This document shows positions 5,693 through 53,600 of a stretch of 64,000 bases of DNA, one piece after another. The notes under the pieces were generated by a model, which was given only the letters and a program-made list of their open reading frames with translations, was not told the origin of the DNA and ran no database searches. The stretch's first letter is position 1; each line of letters begins with the position of its first letter. The position numbers were made by a program, and so were the translations under genes. Source of the stretch: Calditrichia bacterium. GTDB lineage: Bacteria > Calditrichota > Calditrichia > RBG-13-44-9 > J075. The stretch lies in assembly GCA_028284905.1 (NCBI GenBank), contig JANQQU010000093.1, positions 1 to 64,000 of the forward strand, given 5' to 3'.

Positions 5693-6556
5693 ATGAAACT
5701 CGCTCCACTTTATATCTTTCTTGCCCTTTTCATCTTCTCCTGTAATCAGGACAAAATTGACCAGCTGGAAACCCAGAAAGCTGAAATCCAAAGCGAATAT
5801 GATCGCTTGATGGAAGAATCTCAAGCGAAGGATGAATTCATTGCCGAGTATACAAAAACATTGAATGATGTTTATGACAATCTTGAGCTGATTCGTAAGC
5901 GTGAGGGATTGCATCTGGAGATTTCCAAAAATCTGGAAAAAGAGCAAACCCCCGAATTGAAAATGAAGATGCTTAATAATATTTCCAGCATCGATAGCTA
6001 TCTGAAAAGCAGCAAAAAACGCATTGCCGGTTTGCGCAAAAAGATTAAAGACGGAGAGCTGAAAACGAGCTCGCTCAGTGAAATGGTTGAGGGCCTGAAC
6101 AAGGTGATCAGCGAACGGGAAGTGAAAATTCAGGAACTCCATGCGGAAACCGAAGAGCTTGGTATTCGGGTATCTGAAGTAGAAAAAGAATTGGAAAATA
6201 AAGAAGCACGGATCGCCGAACAAACCCGGGCGCTTAATACCGCCTACTATGTTGTCGGCACCGAAAAAGAGTTAAAGACTAAAGGCATTATCGAAGAAAA
6301 GGGCGGATTATTAGGCCTGCGTAAAACGAAGAAGCTGGCTGCCAATTTTGATCCGAACCATTTTACCGCTACCGATATCGTTGCAACATCTGCCATTCCG
6401 TTTGATCCGGCGGTGAAGAAGATCGACATTGTTTCTCCGCATAATCCGGAATCTTACCACATCGTTACGGATGAAAACAATCAGACTGTTTTGGAAATTG
6501 TTAATCCGGACGAATTTTGGAAGATTAAATATCTGGTAGTATTAGCTAAAAGTTAG
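5693..6556 (+). CDS. Coiled-coil lipoprotein
   Basis: A 287-residue lipoprotein. The signal peptide ends in FIFSCNQD with the lipobox cysteine at residue 17. Residues about 20-185 are almost continuous heptad-rich coiled coil (QLETQKAEIQSEYDRLMEE; ISEREVKIQELHAETEELG). A compact C-terminal region (about 190-287) contains GLLGLRKTKKLAANFDPNHF and ends in a beta-rich segment. The family is widespread in the FCB group but has no established function that I know of; a spacer or anchoring role in the periplasm is plausible. The ribosome-binding region ATAGAGGT at 5681-5688 is complementary to the tandem motif of the small RNA at 38985-39150. A possible sigma-54 promoter lies upstream. Confidence 0.85.
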   Translation: MKLAPLYIFLALFIFSCNQDKIDQLETQKAEIQSEYDRLMEESQAKDEFIAEYTKTLNDVYDNLELIRKREGLHLEISKNLEKEQTPELKMKMLNNISSIDSYLKSSKKRIAGLRKKIKDGELKTSSLSEMVEGLNKVISEREVKIQELHAETEELGIRVSEVEKELENKEARIAEQTRALNTAYYVVGTEKELKTKGIIEEKGGLLGLRKTKKLAANFDPNHFTATDIVATSAIPFDPAVKKIDIVSPHNPESYHIVTDENNQTVLEIVNPDEFWKIKYLVVLAKS

Positions 6557-38869: not shown

Positions 38870-38900
38870 GGCAAAAAAAAACCGGCCTTATCGGCCGGCT
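38870..38900 (-). terminator. Second terminator of the minus-strand small RNA
   Basis: On the minus strand AGCCGGCC-GATAA-GGCCGGT is followed by nine T residues (plus-strand A-run 38873-38881). It lies about 105 bp past the first terminator and would stop read-through from the small-RNA promoter before parA. Confidence 0.8.
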
Positions 38901-38984: not shown

Positions 38985-39014
38985 AAAAATGGCCGACCAG
39001 GGGCATGGTCGGCC
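38985..39014 (-). terminator. Intrinsic terminator of the small RNA
   Basis: On the minus strand the stem 39014-39006 / 38999-38991 (GGCCGACCA with exact complement) encloses a 6-base loop and is followed by ATTTTT at 38990-38985. Confidence 0.8.
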
Positions 39015-39150
39015 GCTGAGGGAATCCTATCGACAAGCGACAGGATTTGTAGAGGTTAGAGGGGGTTATAGAGGTTGAAGCCATTGTTTGTTTTCCAAAA
39101 AAGTTTCAATTTTTTGCCCTGTAAAAAATGGGCGTTTTGAGCGTTTTTGC
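38985..39150 (-). ncRNA. Probable small RNA with tandem anti-Shine-Dalgarno-like motifs
   Basis: The transcript is predicted from about 39150 to 38985 (about 165 nt). It has a consensus promoter at 39157-39185. Moving 5' to 3' it contains an A/T-rich leader, three tandem units AACCTCTAT (39076-39068), AACCCCCTCT (39067-39058) and AACCTCTAC (39057-39049), a 10-bp hairpin (39047-39023) and an intrinsic terminator (stem 39014-38991, then TTTTT). The C/U-rich units are predicted single-stranded and complementary to AGAGG-type ribosome-binding sites. A 33-codon ORF (39084-38983) exists but has a weak ribosome-binding site. I recognise no known RNA family. Confidence 0.65.
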
Positions 39151-39219
39151 AATAGCATTATACAACATGAAAAACGGCTTGTCAAGAGAAAAAAACAAAA
39201 ATATCGCCCAAAACGCTCA
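39129..39219. promoter_or_regulatory. Inverted pair of operator-like repeats flanking the promoter
   Basis: CGCCCA-AAA-CGCTCA at 39205-39219 and, in reverse, CGCTCA-AAA-CGCCCA at 39143-39129 match at 13 of 15 positions. Each arm is two CGCYCA hexamers 9 bp apart. The arms sit on either side of the small-RNA promoter; the downstream arm overlaps the predicted transcript start. Confidence 0.6.
39157..39185 (-). promoter_or_regulatory. Consensus sigma-70 promoter of the small RNA
   Basis: On the minus strand TTGACA (39185-39180), a 17-bp spacer, and TATAAT (39162-39157): every base matches the consensus. It points away from the permease gene at 39292. Confidence 0.85.
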
Positions 39220-53533: not shown

Positions 53534-53562
53534 GATACTTATTAAGTCAATTGTATAAAAAG

Positions 53563-53600
53563 AAACGCCGCTCAATGAGTTCTTTGAGCGGCGTTTTCAA
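53563..53600. terminator. Terminator after the amidohydrolase
   Basis: AAACGCCGCTCAA at 53563-53575 is exactly complementary to 53584-53596; A-rich upstream and T-rich downstream, so it can serve both converging genes. Confidence 0.85.

Follow-up and report, generated by a model that had tools for sequence, protein, structure and literature searches.

Small RNAs such as RsaE/RoxS, LhrC and RepG reach G-rich or Shine-Dalgarno (SD) sites through an unpaired C/U-rich seed, and several of them have no need of Hfq. The putative small RNA described here, which lies in a 64-kb window of DNA (the whole stretch of 64,000 nucleotides that was analysed) from a member of the Calditrichota, is like them in its putative C/U-rich seed but belongs to another phylum and differs in sequence. 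Repeated C/U-rich motifs resembling the anti-SD sequence have also been described in CcsR1-4 of Rhodobacter sphaeroides and in the SmelA075-type CCUCCUCCC RNAs of the Rhizobiales (PMC8307010, PMC3927594). The window RNA shares such repeated motifs with the CcsR RNAs, which act in photooxidative stress (PMC8307010, PMC3927594), and just as the CcsR RNAs derive from 3'-UTRs, the corresponding tract in two related genomes (G005 and G006) forms part of an mRNA's 3' region. However, in the CcsR and SmelA075-type RNAs CCUCCUCCC is presented in hairpin loops, whereas the window tract is linear, predicted to be unpaired and devoid of CCUCCUCCC; the CcsR promoter is of the RpoHI/HII type, whereas that of the window RNA is of the sigma-70 type with putative operator boxes; and the CcsR family is Hfq-associated, whereas Hfq (PF17209) was not found in the 16 genomes of the window's order that were searched (the same search was positive in 5 of 14 control genomes). 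Furthermore, the CcsR and SmelA075-type RNAs have no sequence homology to the window RNA at Rfam thresholds. Membership of the CcsR/CCUCCUCCC family is ruled out by the loop motif, the promoter type and the Hfq association.

The second point of comparison is with MerR-type cobalamin proteins. The CarH-type operator consists of tandem 11-bp direct repeats, nAnnTnnACAn, over the promoter (PMC8156234), and the protein of PDB entry 8JBS, for which the structures 8JBS and 8JBT are available, has been named CtMerR (PMC11796333). The candidate regulator described below is like CtMerR and CarH/LitR (PMC11796333, PMC8156234) in combining a MerR-type helix-turn-helix with two B12-binding domains and in its cobalamin residues (W, E, H and H), and the systems are also alike in apparent autoregulation, a carotenoid/photolyase-type regulon and primary-sigma promoters. 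The Calditrichota case differs from CarH in its putative operator, where 9-bp TGAGCG repeats form inverted pairs around the promoter in place of tandem 11-bp repeats over it, and from both CtMerR and CarH/LitR in that its regulon includes small RNA genes.

The probable small RNA locus

The locus comprises the following features, listed in the direction of transcription.

39205-39219, minus strand: candidate upstream operator box TGAGCGTTTTGGGCG, one mismatch to TGAGCGnTTTGAGCG, ending 19 bp before the -35 element
39180-39185, minus strand: -35 element TTGACA, with a 17-bp spacer to the -10 element
39157-39162, minus strand: -10 element TATAAT, with a 17-bp spacer to the -35 element
38985-39150, minus strand: putative small RNA of ~165 nt, from its fold and the promoter and terminator at its ends
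39129-39143, plus strand: candidate downstream operator box TGGGCGTTTTGAGCG, inverted, one mismatch to TGAGCGnTTTGAGCG, starting 13 bp after the -10 element
39049-39076, minus strand: G-free C/U-rich tract AACCUCUAUAACCCCCUCUAACCUCUAC, the putative seed, predicted to be single-stranded
39023-39047, minus strand: 10-bp hairpin with a CUUGU loop, predicted with high pairing probability
38985-39014, minus strand: intrinsic terminator GGCCGACCA-N6-UGGUCGGCC-A-U5 (stem 39014-38991), predicted with high pairing probability

An initial annotation of this DNA had placed a consensus promoter on the minus strand, and TTGACA-17-TATAAT (39185-39157) is indeed the sole 12/12 promoter in the 64-kb window, against a mean of 0 in 20 shuffled windows. 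The ~165-nt RNA drawn downstream of it, with its 10-bp hairpin and intrinsic terminator, was likewise recovered by structure prediction, with a folding energy for 39150-38985 of -42.7 kcal/mol (z = -4.15) and equal stability in 0 of 200 shuffles. The tract AACCUCUAUAACCCCCUCUAACCUCUAC (39076-39049) is predicted to be unpaired over its full length (p about 0.9 or more), as had been proposed, but it lies nearly half-way along the RNA and not a third of the way in. Similarly, the suggestion that the RNA is probably new agrees with the search of the window against the Rfam covariance models, which gave 0 matches at the gathering threshold; the best sub-threshold score was for isrD (16.2 versus 37 bits), and relaxed thresholds yielded scattered weak matches and nothing else. 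No copy of the tract was present in the viral contigs searched. By sequence, the locus has features typical of an intrinsically terminated, trans-acting small RNA (its own promoter, an intergenic position, a terminator and a predicted unpaired seed), and we infer a transcript from what is probably an independent, free-standing small RNA gene. A second strong hairpin with a T-run (38872-38900; GCCGGCC..GGCCGG) is found ~85 bp past the terminator of the RNA.

Candidate operator boxes, probable regulon and candidate regulator

The promoter of the small RNA is bracketed by two inverted TGAGCGnTTTGAGCG boxes, a feature overlooked in the initial annotation, as was the light-regulon context; the downstream box (39129-39143) corresponds to about +7 to +21 of the transcript. 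As a 15-mer with at most one mismatch, TGAGCGnTTTGAGCG has 25 matches in the window's own genome (G000) against 0 for a reversed control. The strict paired-box pattern, GAGCGnTWTGAGCG-N40-68-CGCTCAWAnCGCT, occurs in all seven genomes of the family and in none of the 33 other Calditrichota tested, and among 84,980 GTDB species it was found on 13 contigs, eleven with Calditrichota-type titles and two from a 'Deltaproteobacteria' PRO9 MAG. The title of the latter (WYBG01 contigs, L094 and L106) is probably wrong, and the MAG would belong with G006 of the Calditrichota family.

At sigma-70-type promoters the gap between the end of the upstream box and the -35 element is 6-9 or 16-19 bp, with one outlier at 29 bp, and that between the -10 element and the start of the downstream box is 5-7 or 10-15 bp. 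The two distance classes differ by roughly one turn of the helix, a spacing to be expected if a protein binds the DNA on one face. In the operator candidate, two inverted copies of a 9-bp direct repeat, TGAGCGnTT-TGAGCG, surround the promoter. Elsewhere in the window, at 53556-53600, the half-box-like inverted repeat AAACGCCGCTCAA..TTGAGCGGCGTTT is probably a terminator hairpin.

Paired boxes at quantised distances flank the promoters of genes for lycopene cyclase, GTP cyclohydrolase II and DUF4397 lipoproteins, and single or paired boxes adjoin the photolyase, fasciclin, SOUL and MerR/B12 regulator genes. The box-adjacent genes of G000 encode lycopene cyclase, DNA photolyase, GTP cyclohydrolase II, SOUL, fasciclin and 2-thiouracil desulfurase/DUF1722 proteins, and further an amine oxidase, a PAS-SpoIIE protein, TMEM220, an SDR and carbonic anhydrase (regulon proteins were assigned by Pfam, GTP cyclohydrolase II in the G005 homologue). 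In sister genomes, a second photolyase, a photolyase-related protein (DPRP), a CrtI-like oxidoreductase and further DUF4397 proteins are box-adjacent. Judged from known families, this appears to be the usual gene content of carotenoid or light-protection regulons, and the small RNA is very probably a member of the box regulon that these photoprotection genes share.

Several other box loci are of interest in their own right. The protein adjoining a single box at L059 3711-4907 (G000:C77) joins a SpoIIE phosphatase to a PAS_9 domain whose GKNCRFLQG motif is LOV-like, and is possibly a blue-light sensor inside the regulon. At L049 3562-3368 (G000:C1) a short leader, possibly an attenuator, separates a box promoter from a SOUL heme-binding gene; it carries a terminator-like hairpin and may contain a 38-codon ORF. 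A box-driven ArsC-like frame at about 3553-3164 of L065 (G003:C34) contains an in-frame TGA in NS(TGA)NTCKK, possibly selenocysteine, and at L066 3738-3870 (G003:C38) paired boxes and a promoter lie ahead of a G-rich segment and a hairpin, in sequence that is apparently non-coding. Finally, L046 6145-6378 (G000:C25:156144-156377) carries a second box-flanked 12/12 promoter, here with the boxes in direct orientation. Its RNA is structured and apparently non-coding, with a long GGATCTA...TAGATCC hairpin, a strong terminator and the sequence AAAGGGAGUGG, and like the window RNA it adjoins a MacB-like permease gene.

The candidate regulator in the window's own genome is a CtMerR/CarH-like protein (G000:C7:241572-242420). 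The regulators of the family are 288-289 residues long, and in three of these proteins Pfam assigned MerR/HTH_17, B12-binding_2 and B12-binding domains, the B12-binding score falling slightly under the cut-off in two of the three. The best PDB match is 8JBS (CtMerR; E 2e-28), with CarH next. Six of the seven family genomes have this gene next to a box, and in the fragmented G001 it was not found. Residues W138, E148, H149 and H186 are invariant in 6/6 regulators and correspond to the cobalamin residues W131, E141, H142 and H177 of CarH; furthermore, Wx9EH is present in all ten regulator loci read. In the GxxH motif the His is invariant and the Gly is found in one of six regulators, while in GxxxP the Pro is found in three of six and is absent from the G000 protein; because these two motifs are just partly kept, the light response is a putative one. 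All ten regulator loci that were inspected, which include four from outside the family, have boxes or degenerate half-boxes upstream, and exact 11-bp repeats were found upstream of none of the regulators at the loci inspected. The boxes upstream of the regulator genes support autoregulation and a link between protein and box, short of proof of binding, and the MerR/B12 regulator may bind the TGAGCGnTTTGAGCG boxes.

Related RNAs and their conserved core

In G002 (L075 3340-3480), directly downstream of a beta-carotene 15,15'-dioxygenase gene, a box 18 bp before TTGACT is followed by a promoter, a C/U tract and a strong terminator. In G005 and G006 (L047 5045-4953 and L048 5633-5725) a C/U tract and terminator are flanked by a box-driven DUF4397 gene on one side and by the next box promoter on the other; here the tract follows the terminator of the DUF4397 gene and is without a clear promoter of its own. 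Between these two genomes the tract and terminator differ at 1/76 columns, as against 9/81 in the box promoter and 7/77 in the preceding 3' region. A C/U tract with a terminator within 250 nt of a box would be expected ~0.27 times and was found at two independent loci besides the window, giving a P of about 0.03 that is indicative only, as the pattern was tuned after the first examples had been seen; the background was four matches, three of them copies of one site, over 1.09 Mb of strand-length distant from any box. In 40 genomes a sequence model recovered only the four known RNAs, BLAST likewise added no others, and the weak matches inspected were without close boxes. The C/U RNA was not found in G001, G003 or G004, of which G001 and G004 are fragmented MAGs.

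The four RNAs align just in the C/U tract and the terminator position, and RNAalifold found no pair common to them. The three-unit layout and the 10-bp hairpin are both particular to the window: the hairpin (39047-39023) is confined to the window's genome and missing from the related RNAs. The conserved core appears from the alignment to be the C/U tract plus the terminator, and not the three units, the hairpin or the 33-codon ORF that spans the tract and the terminator stem at 39084-38983.

That ORF raises the question of whether the transcript is a short coding RNA in which the C/U tract represents Thr, Ser and Pro codons. ORFs of 20 and 14 codons, the latter with a GTG start, also cross the tracts of G002 and G005, respectively, but the peptides are unrelated, the starts have no clear SD sites, and the window ORF runs across the terminator stem; furthermore, stop codons require A and G, so that an open frame in C/U-rich DNA follows from its composition. 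Codon conservation, which the initial annotation had named as the alternative to a conserved RNA, was not seen, and we regard translation of this ORF as highly improbable. The element could also have no function of its own, as an attenuated leader or terminator fragment, for example that of the AAA_31/BcsQ-like gene (38537-37719), or as a side effect of operator placement. Although this gene is on the same strand, with the RNA ~450 nt upstream, and one structured leader-like transcript does precede SOUL at a box locus (L049), between the RNA and the gene stand two strong hairpins, each with a U-run (39014-38985 and about 38900-38872), and the C/U tract and terminator recur at box loci in two other genera; such an origin is rather improbable. 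The independent small RNA of the initial annotation is supported, its single-stranded C/U tract and terminator recurring at box-linked loci in two further genera, but the decoy role assigned to it is not.

Target pairing and proposed mechanism

According to that decoy proposal, the three units mimic the 16S anti-SD sequence and block AGAGG-type ribosome-binding sites (RBSs) of multiple targets. The CCUC of each unit is complementary to GAGG, the genome does use SD sites (AGGAG upstream of 18/102 genes versus 2.1 expected), and the G002 and G005 tracts hold CCUCC/CUCC, which is nearer to the true anti-SD. However, the tract paired with RBS regions no better than scrambled tracts did: its mean duplex energy with 118 predicted RBS regions, whose start choice was biased by SD score, was -8.42 kcal/mol versus -8.78 for scrambled tracts, of which 21 out of 30 did as well or better. 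With SD usage recomputed without this selection, AGAGG was not enriched upstream of starts (3/102 versus 2.3 expected), and TAGAGGTT before ATG was not over-represented genome-wide (19 versus 35 for the reversed pattern). Genes in this genome use AGGAG-type sites, whereas the complement of the window tract is AGAGG/AGAGGGGG. The ATAGAGGT site singled out earlier, upstream of the gene at 5693, does exist, but by duplex energy it ranks just 8th among the 118 RBS regions. We consider the decoy role quite unlikely; as these tests lent it no support, pairing with particular G-rich targets, independently of Hfq, is favoured.

A sponge, in which the C/U tract would bind a protein or titrate another RNA rather than pair with mRNAs, also has to be weighed. 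Repeated unpaired C/U units recall protein-titrating RNAs, and the same genome has the second box-driven structured RNA with AAAGGGAGUGG (L046 6145-6378). Yet 57 of 200 scrambled tracts paired with the L046 RNA as well as the tract itself did, and a candidate protein is lacking; this function is unlikely. For the favoured alternative, action in trans by base-pairing, we put the chances at about even.

The best explanation of the locus is that of a base-pairing small RNA in a light regulon controlled by a B12 photoreceptor, a reading that we hold with moderate confidence. In the dark, a tetrameric MerR-type adenosylcobalamin photoreceptor on both TGAGCGnTTTGAGCG boxes would exclude RNA polymerase from the sigma-70 promoter. 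In the light, the Co-C bond would be broken and the repressor would leave, and the RNA would then be made while the genes for carotenoids, photolyase, flavin synthesis and envelope proteins are expressed. Once terminated, the RNA would expose its G-free C/U tract, which would most likely pair with G-rich or purine-rich mRNA sites and so lower the translation or stability of the targets. The elements read from sequence are the promoter, the box phasing, the shared regulon, the box at the regulator gene, the terminator, the predicted unpaired tract and its recurrence; from these we infer the transcript, the binding of the regulator to the boxes, the direction of the light effect and the mode of base-pairing. 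Tentatively, and at slightly less than even odds, we extend this reading to a Calditrichota cobalamin photoreceptor regulon with an undescribed operator, which would control an Hfq-independent family of C/U-tract small RNAs together with photoprotection genes.

If true, this would be a direct link from light to riboregulation through vitamin B12 and, as far as our literature search showed, the first small RNA to be assigned to the control of a cobalamin photoreceptor. It would also provide a candidate DNA site for the CtMerR class, in which the structure has been solved and the operator described only as probably unlike that of CarH. Furthermore, a phylum that is almost without genetics would gain a regulon linked to function, a DNA operator and a regulator resembling B12 photoreceptors.
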